Origin: Lactobacillaceae bacterium
Lineage (GTDB): Bacteria > Bacillota > Bacilli > Lactobacillales > Lactobacillaceae
Assembly (NCBI GenBank): GCA_031289015.1
Contig: JAITQG010000001.1
Span: 1 to 34,032 of the forward strand
Direction: 5' to 3'
Length of the DNA: 34,032 bases
How positions within the stretch are numbered: position 1 is the stretch's first letter; every line of letters begins with the position of its first letter. Under the pieces are notes generated by a model. The model searched no databases and was not told the origin of the DNA. It saw only the letters and a list, made by a program, of their open reading frames with translations. A program made the translations under genes and the position numbers. Of this stretch, positions 14,951 to 22,292 are shown one piece after another.

Positions 14951-15589
14951 ATGAAATATGCAAGTAAAATTTTGCTAGGCGTGCTTAGCTTGAGCTTTGT
15001 GCTTGGCAACGCTAGTATAGCTTTTGCTGGTGAAGACAATCCGGCAAATGTATATCACGGCAGTGAGAGTACTGGCTATTGGGGAGATAATGCTCTTAGC
15101 GCGGAAGACGAAGGCGAAACTAAGGTGAGTTATAGTATTACTTCATCTTTCACAATTGAGATTCCGGCCATGATTGAATTTGCACCAAATGCCCTGACTG
15201 CCACGGGCGATGTTGTTTTGCATCCATACCCTAAACTCCCCGGTGATGCCGACCTGATTACCGTTCAACCAGCATCAGATTGGCAATTGAGTAACTCAGA
15301 TGGTACCGATAGTGTGTATTATGATTTTGGAACCACTGACGGAGGTGAAGTCTATGATACAAAATATAATCCATACTTTTTTTCGCGAATTAACGATAAA
15401 CTCCCAGTCCCCCAATTGATTTTTAAGACCGATGGAACCGTTGCAGATGAGCGCAGTCAAACGGTCATCGCATCAATTGAAAGCCAAGACGACTTTCAAT
15501 ATGCTGGTGACTATACGGATCCCATAATTTGGACCGTTGCTGTTGTTGAGGAGACTCCAACACCAGGGCAAAAAGAAGGCGGAAAATAA
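14951..15589 (+). CDS. Secreted protein, array member 1 (WxL-like signature)
   Basis: I do not recognise a named family. The 212 residues begin with a Sec signal peptide (MKYASKILLG..., cleavage likely after AFA at 26). The mature part is acidic. Shared features with the next two genes are an N-terminal NVYxxxxxxGYWG segment, a strand-rich SYSITSSFTIEIPA segment (about 60-73), and a PKLPGDA turn. A WQL motif (111-113) lies in TVQPASDWQLSN. The C-terminal PIIWTVAV (191-198) is followed by a short polar tail. The spacing of WQL to IWTV (about 83 residues) resembles the two-motif layout of WxL domains. No LPxTG or membrane anchor is present. The ribosome binding site is AGGAGA. The gene is 51 bp before member 2. 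Confidence 0.8.
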   Translation: MKYASKILLGVLSLSFVLGNASIAFAGEDNPANVYHGSESTGYWGDNALSAEDEGETKVSYSITSSFTIEIPAMIEFAPNALTATGDVVLHPYPKLPGDADLITVQPASDWQLSNSDGTDSVYYDFGTTDGGEVYDTKYNPYFFSRINDKLPVPQLIFKTDGTVADERSQTVIASIESQDDFQYAGDYTDPIIWTVAVVEETPTPGQKEGGK

Positions 15590-15639
15590 TTGGGCTAGAA
15601 AATCTACAAACATAATCCCATAGAAAGGGCGAACATATT

Positions 15640-16302
15640 ATGAAATATACAAGTAAAATTCTTCTCGGCTTGCTTAGTGTCGGCTTGGTCCTGGGCAATG
15701 CTAGTGCAGCTTTTGCCTTCGTTCAAAACCCACCAAATGTATATACATATGAAGACGGCGAGGGCTATTGGGGAGCGCCTGAAGCAGGAGAAGCTAAAGA
15801 AGGTGAGACAGAGGTTAAATACACCATTGAATCAGCCTATTATATCGTGATTCCCGCCACCATGGCTTTTGAAGAGGGCGCAACTGAAGTAACCGGAGAA
15901 GTCACATTAAGAGCGCATCCCAAGCTACCATCAGACGCTAACGAAATTCATGTGTCCCCATCGTCTGATACTGATTATAACTTGATGAATTACGTCCCCT
16001 TAATCGATGATGCAGTTCCATACACATTTGGGACAGTTGAAGATGCAGCATTTGGCACCGATGATGATGATGTTTTCTTCTCTGGTGCGCAAAATCCAGC
16101 CGACGCCTACTTTTCGTTTACGGCTAATGGGACTGAAGAATCAGACCTGTCACAAATTGTGAAAGCCACTGTTGCGGGCGTCAATGCCTTTGCTCACTCT
16201 GGTGAATACCTGGACACTGTCATCTGGACCGTTACTGTGCCACAACCAGAAACTCCTGAACCTGATCAACCTGAGAACCCAAAGAATCCTGTTGAAGAAT
16301 AG
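15640..16302 (+). CDS. Secreted protein, array member 2 (WxL-like signature)
   Basis: Paralogue of the preceding gene, 220 residues, with nearly the same signal peptide (MKYTSKILLGLLS, cleavage after AFA). The YWG segment reads PPNVYTYEDGEGYWG, and the IPA strand is YYIVIPATMAF. The first motif is Tyr-substituted, YNL (113-115). The C-terminal motif is VIWTVTV with Trp196. A long acidic, Pro-rich tail (QPETPEPDQPENP...) follows and could act as a cell-wall spacer, but no sortase motif follows it. The ribosome binding site AAAGGG is moderate. It is probably secreted and beta-rich. The function is unknown. Confidence 0.8.
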   Translation: MKYTSKILLGLLSVGLVLGNASAAFAFVQNPPNVYTYEDGEGYWGAPEAGEAKEGETEVKYTIESAYYIVIPATMAFEEGATEVTGEVTLRAHPKLPSDANEIHVSPSSDTDYNLMNYVPLIDDAVPYTFGTVEDAAFGTDDDDVFFSGAQNPADAYFSFTANGTEESDLSQIVKATVAGVNAFAHSGEYLDTVIWTVTVPQPETPEPDQPENPKNPVEE

Positions 16303-16360
16303 ACAACTCCAACTGCATCCCCAGTAGTAATGATCTTAACCTTATGAAAGGAGGCCCACC

Positions 16361-16978
16361 ATGAAATATCTCACCCGCATTTTACTGGCGACAATTAGCT
16401 TAAGTCTTGGTAGCGCGCTTGGCAGTACCGTAATGGCAAAAGATGTTTATTACCCGCCAAACGTATATACCTATGAAGATGGCTCAGGTTTTTGGGGAGT
16501 TAAAAGTTTGCCAGAACCCGATGAAGGTCAAACCTTGGTTTCTTATACCATCACCCCTAGTTATTGTATCGAGATCCCTGCGACCATCACTTTTGCTGCC
16601 AATGAAACGCAGGCGGATGGCACTGTTACATTATTCCCGCATCCAAAGTTGCCATCCGGTGGCAATGAGATTCATGTCTCGCCTTCCTCGGATTCAAGTT
16701 ACAGGTTAGCGAATGGTGTAGCTGACAGCGTGGATTACGAATTTGGGACTACGGCATCAGAAACTTATGATACGACTGATGATCCCGATTACTTCTCGGG
16801 CGCATCTGATGCTCAAACGGCATACTTGGCCTTTGTGACTGACGGGACAGACGCTGATCAACAAGACCAAACCGTTGTTGCCAACATTGATAATTATGAT
16901 GTCTTTAAATTTTCAGGCGCATACACTGATGCGGTAATTTGGACAATCACCGTGCCCGCTGCACCTGCTGTAAAATAA
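16361..16978 (+). CDS. Secreted protein, array member 3 (WxL-like signature)
   Basis: Third paralogue, 205 residues, with a signal peptide ending near VMA (26). It shares NVYTYEDGSGFWG, CIEIPATITF, HPKLPSGGNEIHVSPSSD, YRL (114-116, in the WxL position) and VIWTITV (Trp194). It is closer to member 2 than to member 1: the segments NVYTYEDG and EIHVSPSSD are identical. It has one cysteine (in SYCIEI), which the others lack there. The strong ribosome binding site is AAAGGAGG. A bidirectional terminator follows it, ending the array. Confidence 0.8.
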   Translation: MKYLTRILLATISLSLGSALGSTVMAKDVYYPPNVYTYEDGSGFWGVKSLPEPDEGQTLVSYTITPSYCIEIPATITFAANETQADGTVTLFPHPKLPSGGNEIHVSPSSDSSYRLANGVADSVDYEFGTTASETYDTTDDPDYFSGASDAQTAYLAFVTDGTDADQQDQTVVANIDNYDVFKFSGAYTDAVIWTITVPAAPAVK

Positions 16979-17999: not shown

Positions 18000-19055
18000 T
18001 TATTTGCGCTTGAGCCTAATCCCAAGCCCAGTCAACAACGCCCCGACTACCAGCAAGCCGATGATCAACGGTAAGGCCAGGTGGGCGCTTCGTTTGACCG
18101 TGCCCGCTTGCCCATCGCCATTAACTTCGGTGATTTTCTTGTCTTGGATGGTGAAAATTTTGTTAAATTCCCAAATTTGTTTATCCGCATCCTCAAGTTT
18201 TAACACCAGGTGATAACGTCCCGCTGGTAATTTAGCTGTCTGATAATTAAATTCCAGTGCAAATTTTGCCTGTGGCGTGATCGTGCCTGAAGCCAACTTC
18301 AACTCACTGATGGTTTTACCCTTGTTGTCTTGAATGGTGCCAGTCGCCTGAACGTTTTTGATTAATGCATTCGTTGGATTGATCAATTGCACCTTAGTCA
18401 AATTATCACCATTTTCAGCCTTCGTGATAATCTTAGCCAATTTTAAATCAGGTTTTACTTTGACGTTATTTTCTTGCAAGACCATCGCAACTGTATAATT
18501 AAAGACGTTTTTGACGGTTTGTTGTTGCGCATCCACCTTTTGGGTGACACTAATGCCGCCCACGGTAATCCCATTAAACTCATCGCGCGGCACGTCCACC
18601 ACAATCGGAATGTCAGCAACGGTATTGCGCCGCACCAAAATATCGACTTGTGATTTATGGGTCGTACCAAAGGCAACCGTTTTCGTGAAATCAACTGGGC
18701 TAGCCGCATTTATCTCGTCAGTAGTTAGGACATGCTTAGAGTAATCAACCGTTAAATTCCGATTGCAAACTGCTTGATTAGCCGCAATTCGATAGATGTG
18801 TTCCTTAGCCCCATTGATGATTTCAACATGGGCAATTATTTGTTCGGCCGGCTTCACACGCAGCCACCAGTAAGCCAACTTATCATCTGCTTGATGCTTT
18901 TCAAATTTAGGTTTCACTGAAAAACCAACATTCGATTTAGTCGTCACCAGCTCGCTGTTTGTGGCTGGGCGCATACTAATATCTTGAGCGTGCCCAATCG
19001 TATGCATCCCCAATAATGTCAGTAGCGTAATCGCTGTCAACATTAATTTACGCAT
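18000..19055 (-). CDS. WxL-interacting protein, DUF916/DUF3324 type (CscA-like)
   Basis: The 351 residues have a signal peptide (MRKLMLTAITLLTLLG..., cleavage near GHA). A DUF916-like peptidoglycan-binding domain follows (about 25-170, with YWWLRVKPAEQ). Then comes a DUF3324-like domain (about 180-310, ending LPAGRYHLVLKLEDADKQIW.F). A C-terminal helix (about 328-347) and KRK tail complete it. In WxL clusters such proteins bind both peptidoglycan and WxL proteins at the surface. It is the last gene of the operon, 18 bp after the large adhesin-like protein, with ribosome binding site GGGAGGA. It is the second DUF916 protein here and lacks the long cytoplasmic tail of the first. Confidence 0.85.
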   Translation of the reverse strand: MRKLMLTAITLLTLLGMHTIGHAQDISMRPATNSELVTTKSNVGFSVKPKFEKHQADDKLAYWWLRVKPAEQIIAHVEIINGAKEHIYRIAANQAVCNRNLTVDYSKHVLTTDEINAASPVDFTKTVAFGTTHKSQVDILVRRNTVADIPIVVDVPRDEFNGITVGGISVTQKVDAQQQTVKNVFNYTVAMVLQENNVKVKPDLKLAKIITKAENGDNLTKVQLINPTNALIKNVQATGTIQDNKGKTISELKLASGTITPQAKFALEFNYQTAKLPAGRYHLVLKLEDADKQIWEFNKIFTIQDKKITEVNGDGQAGTVKRSAHLALPLIIGLLVVGALLTGLGIRLKRK

Positions 19056-19073
19056 GATAAACTGTTCCTCCCT

Positions 19074-20939
19074 TTATTGCCCAGGTCCACTCACAATTGA
19101 ATATTGCAGCGTAGCATTTTCAGTCGTGGTTTGAGCTTTTAGCGTGTTTGTCGCGGCCAATAATAAGCCTTCACCAGCGGCAAAATGAAAATTATAATTG
19201 CCACCTGCCATCGTTTGCGTGACATTTGATGGCAAATTGGCATCGTCAGTGACTGTCCCAATGTTGTATGGGTCGGTGTTCAAAAGTGTGGCAGTTGGAG
19301 CCCCTGGATTTTGCCAATAATATCTAGTTTTGTCCGGCGACAAATTATTTAGCATCTGAACTTGAACTGTAAAATTAGGATTAGTCCCCCGATCATCCAT
19401 GACGTTGAAATCCATTGACCCATCGCCTGCAATTAATGACCCAAAGCTACCATCGGTGGGTAAGGTCATCAAATCAACCAAAAAATTTCGATTGAGTTGT
19501 GACGTATTCACACCAATTCCGATCGGCTCACTCCACTGCACATACTTAGCTTTTTTCAAAGTGGTTAAATTAGCCGCCGTATAATTTACCGGCGTCATAT
19601 TCGCACTTGCAAATGTCCCGTCAGTTGTCCCAGTCACTTGGCGCAACCATAAATCATTGATCCCGCCAGAACCATCGTTGGTATTTGAAGCGTGGGTTCG
19701 CAACCCAGCTCCGGTAATAACAATCGGCAACTTGGTGTTGCTACTAAACACGGGGGCGGTTTGGGCTTGGAAGGTCACTGAATTAGGATCATTTAAATTC
19801 ATGCTCGACCCGGCACCCGGCACACCTGAAAACAGATTACCCGTTGCTAAGTTGTTAAACAAAATATTACTACCTGCGCCAAAATTAAAGACAGCCTTCT
19901 TAAAGGCATCGACGTTGATGCTACCACCACCAGTGACAATATTAATCTGGCCCCCATTAGCCACATTCACGTACCAGTTATCAAACGTGGTCCACATGAA
20001 CCAACTCCCAAATTCACTTGCGGTGTTTTTCGTTCCGTTGATATTAAATTTAGCGTTTTCACCAATATCCCAGGTGACATCCCCACTTGTATAGTCATCA
20101 TAGTACATTGTGTACGTTTTATTGAGGTTCCAGATTAAGCTCGCGTCATCATCAATTTTTAAGGTATTCGCAGTGTCAGCATATGAATAAAGTGGTTGAT
20201 CGTAGCCCCACGACTGATTTAAAGTCGTTGTCCCATTGACCACTTCGGTATAATACCCACCTTGAATCCATTCACCTTGATTATCGTTACCAGCCATCGA
20301 AGCATCGTTAAAATTATGATTTTGCAATATCGTGAACGTGTTTGTCCCGTAAAACAACGTCTTCCCGTCGTCATTACGAATTGGTCCAGCCCCAGTTGTC
20401 GCTGCCCCATTTGAGACGTCCACATCTTGCCACTTTGTAATGGCGGTCGAATCATTGGTTACTGGAAAAATACCGTTAGCAAGATTATTGATGATTTTTG
20501 CATCTTGCACCATCATCGTGGTTTTGCCAGTAATACCCGAGCTATTTGCATAAAACCCATAATTTCCACGACCAAGACCTGTCGTGTAATTAGTGTCATT
20601 ATCAAAATACAACGTGTGATTATTACCTATAATTGTGACGCCCTTGCCTTCAGTCATGACAGTACCATTATAAGCAGCACTCGACCCCGGCACATCGCTT
20701 GTCACATTTAGATAAACGGTGTTATTATTGGGCGCTTTATTGTAGGTATCTAACATATCTTGCCAGTTGGTAACATTGTAATAAGTTGCGCCCGTAACCC
20801 CAGTCACACTGCCGTCTGTATCCGTTGTCCCGGCCACGACACTAGCTTGACTATGCGGTGCAAATAACACGAAGGCACTTAACATCGCCACCCCGGCCAG
20901 CGCGTATTTAATTTTAGCTATCATTTCCTGTTTCATCAT
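19074..20939 (-). CDS. Large secreted surface protein with degenerate WxL domain (CscC-like)
   Basis: The 621 residues begin with a signal peptide (cleavage near SQA, about 32). A long region rich in Asn, Thr and Gly follows (about 50-450). Its repeated short strands (TVYLNV, VTIIGNNHTLYF, MMVQDAKIINN) suggest a right-handed beta-helix like the pectate-lyase-like adhesins seen in WxL clusters. The last 110 residues align with WxL domains in layout: DDRGTNPNFTVQV (515-527) stands where canonical members have GWxLxV. NATLQYSIV (608-616) stands where they have LxWTL. Both tryptophans are thus Phe/Tyr. The start overlaps the previous stop codon (TAATG). It is probably a cell-wall-bound adhesin. 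The ligand is unknown. Confidence 0.8.
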   Translation of the reverse strand: MMKQEMIAKIKYALAGVAMLSAFVLFAPHSQASVVAGTTDTDGSVTGVTGATYYNVTNWQDMLDTYNKAPNNNTVYLNVTSDVPGSSAAYNGTVMTEGKGVTIIGNNHTLYFDNDTNYTTGLGRGNYGFYANSSGITGKTTMMVQDAKIINNLANGIFPVTNDSTAITKWQDVDVSNGAATTGAGPIRNDDGKTLFYGTNTFTILQNHNFNDASMAGNDNQGEWIQGGYYTEVVNGTTTLNQSWGYDQPLYSYADTANTLKIDDDASLIWNLNKTYTMYYDDYTSGDVTWDIGENAKFNINGTKNTASEFGSWFMWTTFDNWYVNVANGGQINIVTGGGSINVDAFKKAVFNFGAGSNILFNNLATGNLFSGVPGAGSSMNLNDPNSVTFQAQTAPVFSSNTKLPIVITGAGLRTHASNTNDGSGGINDLWLRQVTGTTDGTFASANMTPVNYTAANLTTLKKAKYVQWSEPIGIGVNTSQLNRNFLVDLMTLPTDGSFGSLIAGDGSMDFNVMDDRGTNPNFTVQVQMLNNLSPDKTRYYWQNPGAPTATLLNTDPYNIGTVTDDANLPSNVTQTMAGGNYNFHFAAGEGLLLAATNTLKAQTTTENATLQYSIVSGPGQ

Positions 20940-21505
20940 TACACTCCCGTGACCAAACTATGCGTAATGGTCGCCTCGTATAGCCCGTTGCCAAGCATGG
21001 CTGAATGCGGATTCAACACCATATCGGCTGAAATATCACCGGACGTCTGAGTACCATTGGCATCAGCGTTCCCCACCGCAACTGTCCCTTGGGCTTGATA
21101 GATATCAACGTCACTTGTCCCGGTCACGGCTTGGTTTTGGCCATCTTTAACTGTGGTCAAGAAATTATCTACAGGTAATTTCTTTACTCCCCCGACCAAG
21201 GTAAAAGCCGTAATCTGGGCTTGGATAGTGTAACCAGTACTCCCCCCGCGTAAATCAACCACACGATACTGGTTATCCCCCTGCCCATTCACGTTGCTAG
21301 TGTGATCCCCAATCTTTTCAGTTGGAAACACAATATTTGGGACTGAGACAAAATACAATGCATCACTGGTTGGTGCAACGACGGTAATACTAGCTGTTCC
21401 GTTCCCAGTCGTTGGTGGTGTACTATCGGCAGTTGCTTGGCCGTGAAATTGACCGGTGAAAGCAACTGCAAGGACCGCCGTGATCAATCCTATTAACTTT
21501 TTCAT
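20939..21505 (-). CDS. Small secreted protein with degenerate WxL domain
   Basis: From the ATG at 21505 (AAAGGAG upstream) it is 188 residues. It has a signal peptide (MKKLIGLITAVLAVAFTG..., cleavage near ATA, about 26) and is then almost entirely WxL-like domain. The first motif position reads DLRGGSTGYTIQA (Tyr at about 92), and the last reads GLYEATITHSL (about 174-184). The family's tryptophans are absent, but the order and spacing of the segments (about 85 residues) are kept. The stop codon overlaps the next start, so production is probably coupled to the large surface protein. Eight extra N-terminal residues are possible from an upstream ATG but lack a ribosome binding site. Confidence 0.78.
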   Translation of the reverse strand: MKKLIGLITAVLAVAFTGQFHGQATADSTPPTTGNGTASITVVAPTSDALYFVSVPNIVFPTEKIGDHTSNVNGQGDNQYRVVDLRGGSTGYTIQAQITAFTLVGGVKKLPVDNFLTTVKDGQNQAVTGTSDVDIYQAQGTVAVGNADANGTQTSGDISADMVLNPHSAMLGNGLYEATITHSLVTGV

Positions 21506-21518
21506 GGCTAACTCCTTT

Positions 21519-22292
21519 CTAATTAACACGCTTGATAATCAACAATGCGCTAATGACGAGCAACAAGTACACCCCAACCAAGATGAGCACCGGGCGCCAT
21601 ACGACCCGCCACAAATCATGATTGATATTCATCCGATTTTTACGGTCGGTTGCAGCGGTGATTTTTGCAAACTCCGCCCCTTTGGTTTTAGTCGCTGATA
21701 ACAACTCAGCCTGCACTAAAATCCGTTTGTCCGTTTTCGTACCTCGATCACACGTAACTAGCGAAAGCATGGACGTCGTCGTGTCTTTAACCTGGTTGAT
21801 GTCCGTCTCTTTGATTAATTTTTTAACCGTAACTTGATACTTATAATATTGATTCAAATAATTGACGTAAACTTTGGCACCAGGTTTAATTGTGCTCAAC
21901 TTGCCAAAATGCAGACTTTCATAACCTAGATGGTGCCCTAACAAAACTAAATTATGGTCATTGGGTGTCCGTTCTGGAAACATCGTCACAGCCCCAAAGG
22001 TTAAATTCGCGTTAGTGAGAGCGGCATAAATATTGTCTTCAATCCCCACACTAGGAATAAATACCTGCCCAACCGCCGCATCATGTCGGCCATTAATTAA
22101 GTTTTTCAGCGTCATCGGTTCGATGTTTTCGGCGGCTTTGATCTGCTTGGGCATCTTATTTGCCACGCGCACCGACAGCGTACTAGTTTTGTTGGCCACA
22201 CTCAGTCCCGCTCTGGCAAAAGGCATTACGGCAAAGATTAAAGCCAACGTAAACAAGCCGACAATGGCAATTTTTAATTGTTTATTTGTCAT
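21519..22292 (-). CDS. Sortase with N- and C-terminal membrane helices
   Basis: A transpeptidase that links LPxTG-type proteins to the wall or to each other. The core shows GQVFIPSVGIEDNIY, the catalytic His in LVLLGHHLG (about 120), Cys in LSLVTCD (about 181), and Arg in DKRILVQAEL (about 190). An N-terminal helix and a C-terminal helix (WRPVLILVGVYLLLVISALLIIKR) flank it. The C-terminal anchor recalls class C (pilin) sortases, but no DPW/DPF lid is seen, so I leave the class open. The start is unclear: ATG at 22292, ATG at 22298 or TTG at 22307. All overlap the upstream gene, implying translational coupling. The LPDTG protein at the head of this operon is its natural substrate. Confidence 0.88.
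   Translation of the reverse strand: MTNKQLKIAIVGLFTLALIFAVMPFARAGLSVANKTSTLSVRVANKMPKQIKAAENIEPMTLKNLINGRHDAAVGQVFIPSVGIEDNIYAALTNANLTFGAVTMFPERTPNDHNLVLLGHHLGYESLHFGKLSTIKPGAKVYVNYLNQYYKYQVTVKKLIKETDINQVKDTTTSMLSLVTCDRGTKTDKRILVQAELLSATKTKGAEFAKITAATDRKNRMNINHDLWRVVWRPVLILVGVYLLLVISALLIIKRVN

Follow-up and report, generated by a model that had tools for sequence, protein, structure and literature searches.

A surface-protein family with a predicted pilin-like fold, represented by three adjacent secreted proteins of a Lactobacillaceae bacterium, and its candidate membrane partner

In csc clusters, a membrane-anchored CscA is encoded together with a small CscB, a large CscC that carries a C-terminal WxL domain, and a small LPxTG protein, CscD (PMC1534035), and for WxLIP, insertion of a hairpin strand into the WxL domain is predicted (PMC10599100). 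Strand donation is also described for TasA, which receives the N terminus of TapA (PMC10151520), and for archaeal threads, where donor strands are used (PMC9715654). The window analyzed here (34,032 nucleotides from a Lactobacillaceae bacterium, assembly GCA_031289015.1, contig JAITQG010000001.1) encodes three adjacent secreted proteins, W1, W2, and W3, for which the original prediction had proposed a small, reduced WxL-like module co-located with a csc cluster. The domain of these proteins defines a bacterial secreted surface-protein family for which neither Pfam nor NCBIfam has a model, in agreement with the family having gone unrecognized at first sight, and its predicted fold is closest to that of pilins.

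The positions, lengths, and motifs first given for the three genes (Table 1) all held, as did the idea of diversification by duplication. In a search with W3, W2 is 49% identical (E-value 2.9e-52) and W1 47% identical (E-value 1.1e-45), so the three are true paralogues, and the domain is present in 30 open reading frames (ORFs) of this genome. The ORFs are separated by 50 and 58 bp, and a promoter and terminator scan gives counts no higher than the shuffled-sequence level. By reading, with no predictor, each protein starts with a signal-peptide-like segment closed by A-x-A, and no LPxTG motif or second hydrophobic segment is seen. The first motif corresponds to WQL at residue 111 in W1, YNL at 113 in W2, and YRL at 114 in W3, followed after 80–83 residues by IWTVAV (193), IWTVTV (195), and IWTITV (193), respectively. 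Pfam gives no match for any of the three proteins, and the single NCBIfam match of W3 (E-value 0.0087, 15.3 bits) lies far below the cut-off of 350.

According to the AlphaFold2 model of W3 (mean predicted local distance difference test score, pLDDT, of 82.5), the domain is predicted to be an immunoglobulin-like (Ig-like) β-sandwich closest to the Csu pilins. The nearest structures among the 50 entries listed by the fold search are chaperone-usher pilins, with CsuE and CsuA/B as the best, and the absence of the WxL structure PDB 9i25 from these 50 entries carries no weight either way. By sequence, the broad family profile also reaches CsuA/B (E-value 1.8e-4), a match that is not reproduced with the narrower profiles A3 and A1, the latter giving an unrelated match to an iota-carbonic anhydrase (E-value 0.0045). 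SCPU (PF05229), the family of these archaic pilins, has no match in W1–W3; the single copy of this genome with a match in the Pfam scan scores 17.7 bits, below the cut-off of 22.4, and six of 27 family members match at E ≤ 0.1 (best 5.8e-4). However, CsuA/B and CsuE are Gram-negative proteins; in the W family, which is Gram-positive, an outer-membrane usher is not to be expected, and, unlike in the Csu pilins, the W-family domain also serves as the C-terminal module of large leucine-rich-repeat proteins.

By reading, little of the chain remains beyond the last core strand, and the N-terminal segment (about 15–40 residues), modeled with low confidence in W3, frequently bears T-x-V-x-Y-x-[VI]. 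Together with the pilin-like predicted fold, the arrays of two to four small subunits found in Clostridia (three in the window), and the precedent of TasA and TapA for donor-strand assembly in a Gram-positive bacterium (PMC10151520), these features speak for a self-assembling fiber, in which the small proteins would polymerize head to tail by placing the N-terminal segment into the next subunit, as in TasA and Gram-negative pilins, and a membrane protein, M (see below), would only start or anchor the polymer. Nonetheless, such a fiber seems rather unlikely, given that in 18 of the 30 ORFs the domain forms the C terminus of a large protein, and these cannot all be fiber subunits.

A search of the 2.08 Mb genome with W3 yields 32 matches at E ≤ 10, and reading the ORFs at the matched places gives the 30 domain ORFs, 27 of them beyond W1–W3. 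Nine are single-domain proteins of 187–220 residues (W1–W3, two on contig 47, one on contig 11, and three on contig 41), the match of contig 11 containing an internal stop codon and its ORF being taken from a later start. The 18 leucine-rich-repeat copies, with the domain at the C terminus, are 403–560 residues long; DUF285 (PF03382) is matched in all four that were scanned, and the remaining 14 have the same repeats as judged by eye. In the other three proteins the domain is N-terminal and another part follows it, one having a sub-cut-off DUF6273 match and two no match. In 17 of the 18 large copies (the 18th was missed by the pattern), 5–10 residues follow the last strand, which leaves no space for an LPxTG motif or a membrane tail. 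A weak domain match (E-value 0.54) with an internal stop codon also lies between two domain ORFs of contig 41. The company of the domain supports the proposal of a surface module, with a small/large organization as known from WxL proteins.

The two-motif signature, put forward from W1–W3, is present in these proteins; as a general feature it does not stand. [WY]xL occurs in 24 of 27 measured copies (the pattern missed three of the 30), and the second motif has Trp in just six and Phe in the other 21; therefore, the double [WY]xL/IWT signature is the trait of one clade and not of the family. Moreover, on sequence and profile evidence, a reduced WxL domain was rejected. PF13731 matches none of W1–W3 and, at E 0.1, none of 27 family members, and hhalign against 13 WxL domains aligns the last strand only, over 19 columns at a probability of 10% with profile A4 and 15 columns at 0.9% with A3, an earlier comparison with nine WxL sequences having given 31 columns at 2–8%. 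A small stand-alone wall-binding module distantly related to WxL, as in the original prediction, would account for the shared motif order, the C-terminal place in large proteins, the similarity of the last strand, and the small/large organization (PMC9772566, PMC1534035); also, the computed isoelectric point (pI) of mature W1–W3, 4.05, is within the CscB range. In view of the PF13731 and profile results, the scarcity of the second Trp, and the distribution of DUF916, such a module is quite improbable.

A functional tie to the neighboring csc cluster was also rejected. DUF916 (PF06030), whose regular absence from genomes with homologues had been named as grounds against the original prediction, is absent above cut-off in 16 of 21 domain-carrying genomes, including all 14 of the class Clostridia, the completeness of the genomes being mostly not stated; it is present in five (G000, G291, G366, G380, and G381), and one Clostridia-class genome (G606) shows a sub-cut-off match. 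The DUF916 genes of the window's own genome occupy five regions on four contigs, and the domain is shared by the window region only, no copy being listed on the other three contigs (C38, C29, and C52). One domain place is seen beside csc, versus about one expected within 5 kb by chance on a rough estimate. Because this count is near chance and DUF916 over cut-off is lacking in 16 of 21 domain genomes, the csc neighborhood of the array is incidental.

Elsewhere in the window, a divergent csc-like set that includes a WxLIP gene adjoins the canonical one. It encodes a 621-residue protein that has no WxL match; a further protein, of 196 residues, matches PF13731 only at an E-value of 0.024. Read by eye, both contain WxL-type segments with the Trp replaced, and they appear to be the window's genuinely reduced WxL proteins.

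A better partner candidate for the family than csc/WxL is M, a gene that recurs beside the domain genes of distant relatives. It encodes a protein of 155–234 residues that has a conserved ectodomain and, by reading, a membrane helix at the N terminus; the closest members end in NGANVET-x-L-[IV]. Neither Pfam nor NCBIfam has a model for it. Weak PapD-like Pfam matches are found in two of 16 members (best 0.0098), no dedicated chaperone or usher search having been made, and PF06030 matches none of the 16 at E 0.1. Also, hhalign detects no similarity between M and four WxLIP sequences (this DUF916 control used one sequence in an earlier test and four in the later one), and a PDB sequence search gives weak unrelated matches only. 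The model of the ectodomain, built from five sequences (pLDDT 78.5), is all-β with two long C-terminal strands.

In a blind look, an M model built from seven loci was applied to stretches of further domain genomes; M adjoins the domain gene in nine of 13 (not in G608, G624, G697, and G814) and is absent from all 18 loci that had been collected for their WxL or DUF916 genes. Among 291 Clostridia-class genomes, M is present in 15 (three of them through only 43–57 of 166 positions) and in 10 of the 12 with the domain (Fisher p = 1.9e-13), and among 148 Lactobacillales in 30, including all five with the domain (p = 2.6e-4). These first p-values are inflated because the rows of the M profile came from domain loci. 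Without the eight donor genomes, M occurs in two of four Clostridia-class domain genomes versus five of 279 (p = 0.003), and without the three Lactobacillales donors p becomes 0.03, all these tests ignoring relatedness among genomes. Where both are present, the match ends of M and the domain are 18–203 bp apart in 13 of 15 genomes, the exceptions being G814 and G697, the latter with a weaker domain protein next to M. Twelve of 20 chosen M regions contain a domain protein (A4), and in four of the other eight M adjoins a different secreted protein of ~215 residues. Such proteins form a second group, which stands in for the domain protein next to M in some Lactobacillales (Table 1), and a profile comparison of the domain with the other small proteins beside M gives no match. 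In one genome (G369), an M gene, a weak domain protein (E-value 8.9e-7), and a PF13731 WxL protein (E-value 1.3e-11) share a cluster.

This genome has two M genes, on contigs 40 and 41, the former with no domain gene within the 9.7 kb fetched; in the window M was not found, and the array has no M adjacent to it. With roughly even confidence, we read W1–W3 as orphan single-domain members of an undescribed Firmicutes pilin-like family whose domain proteins are captured or docked at the wall by M. The domains would be incomplete Ig folds, and M, exposed on the outside of the membrane, would capture them, perhaps through a donated strand that complements the fold. M would then dock large adhesins and small subunits at the wall or assemble them there, as is proposed for WxLIP with WxL and as TapA does for TasA; W1–W3 could be additional subunits, for which the M genes of contigs 40 and 41 would act in trans. 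On the other hand, a window without M, and proteins without LPxTG or a second hydrophobic segment, would also agree with freely secreted β-sandwich proteins (e.g., glycan-binding) that have common ancestry with M-linked surface proteins and neither anchor nor partner. Since the family is M-linked elsewhere and two M genes are present in this genome, free secretion is improbable.

The family occurs in Clostridia plus scattered Lactobacillales. With profile A3 (E 1e-4), the domain is found in one of 251 sampled Lactobacillaceae, namely this genome, and in none of the ten same-genus genomes listed among them; the figure is a lower bound because A3 is biased to this genome, and Po218_bin95 (G380), a metagenome-assembled genome (MAG) named Lactobacillaceae, carries the domain too. 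The same profile finds it in five of 148 genomes of the order Lactobacillales, in one of 149 of the phylum, and in four of 196 of the class of G382, Clostridia, where the broader A4 finds it in 12 of 291. A scan of named genomes gave nine loci, five in Po218_bin95, one in a MAG named Clostridioides, and three in MAGs named Clostridia. The Clostridioides-named MAG of locus L035 has WxL and WxLIP genes, and its M protein shares 60% identity with the M of this lactobacillus; it may represent a wrong name, wrong binning, or gene transfer. A tree built from 54 domains unites 17 of this genome's 18 leucine-rich-repeat copies in one group (support 88/90), with one copy (L025) outside it, and the six Po218_bin95 copies in a separate group (support 95/97). 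This suggests independent expansions in the two genomes. W1–W3 cluster with three other second-Trp copies (support 99/96).

Table 1. Coordinates of the array and of other features discussed; positions without a locus name refer to the window.
Feature	Position	Strand	Length (residues)	Description and basis
W1	14951..15589	+	212	Predicted secreted single-domain pilin-like protein; similarity search, motif scan
W1 parts	~14951-15028; ~15143-15538			Signal-peptide-like segment; core domain; boundaries by reading
W2	15640..16302	+	220	Predicted secreted single-domain pilin-like protein; similarity search, motif scan
W2 parts	~15640-15717; ~15832-16233			Signal-peptide-like segment; core, then Pro/Glu-rich tail; boundaries by reading
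W3	16361..16978	+	205	Predicted secreted single-domain pilin-like protein; used for the structure model
W3 parts	~16361-16438; ~16556-16948			Signal-peptide-like segment; core; boundaries by reading
Divergent csc-like set	18000-21529	-		Adjoins the canonical set
WxLIP of this set	18000-19055
Weak domain match	L027:3094-3564			Contig 41, between two domain ORFs
Second M gene	L133:4937-5443			Contig 40
Second secreted group beside M	L140:5475-6116; L141:3587-4243; L142:4786-5433; L151:3490-4128		~215	Some Lactobacillales
M, domain, and WxL cluster	L152:4312-6364			G369

Several loci combine a large protein with the domain at its C terminus, M, at least one small protein and often more, and a short protein that has a membrane segment at its C terminus. 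This short protein has an LPxTG-like motif in some domain-bearing clusters (LPKAGD in L134, L044, and L045; FPKTG in L137), and in L140, where M adjoins the other kind of small protein, a canonical LPKTG with a sub-cut-off NCBIfam match to EF0750_LPXTG (36.3 bits versus 47). On contig 41, a 793-residue ORF is followed by M, then by three domain ORFs and by a membrane protein with no visible LPxTG motif; the C terminus of the 793-residue protein matches the domain weakly with A4 (E-value 2e-5 scaled to 1000 sequences) and not with the narrower model. The M clusters repeat the cscA–D plan with unrelated parts. Also, the pI of the M of this genome (9.56), taken with that of the acidic mature W1–W3, resembles the CscA/CscB pattern; however, this is not general because M is acidic in seven of 11 clostridial proteins and in both other Lactobacillales rows.

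No domain model covers M, or a module present in thirty surface-type proteins of one bacterium and in arrays of several Clostridia, and no paper on the W family or M was found in a literature search that could not go by name, neither being named, and that had most subscription journals outside its scope. A wider proposal, which we regard as tentative, is a Gram-positive assembly system in which M, as a membrane-tethered Ig-like chaperone, and the subunits would donate strands to pilin-fold subunits and adhesins. It would be csc-like, with chaperone-usher-like parts and no usher. Transfer between gut Clostridia and Lactobacillales would have spread it, and in one lactobacillus it would have expanded to 30 genes.

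Finally, as TasA and TapA of Bacillus subtilis (PMC10151520), this system would join a Gram-positive secreted β-sandwich to a membrane-associated Ig-like helper with a donor-strand logic, although Pfam gives no camelysin match in W1–W3 or in 27 W-family members. With csc/WxL, the M clusters have in common the four-part plan (PMC1534035, PMC9772566, PMC10599100), the membrane-anchored Ig-like protein, and a large protein whose domain is C-terminal after leucine-rich repeats or other parts. However, the W domain has no PF13731 match, M has no DUF916 match or profile similarity, and the membrane helix is N-terminal in M and C-terminal in CscA. If M docks the domains by strand complementation, chaperone-usher-type assembly would have one more Gram-positive example in addition to TasA, and the WxL/csc systems would have a counterpart that follows their plan.
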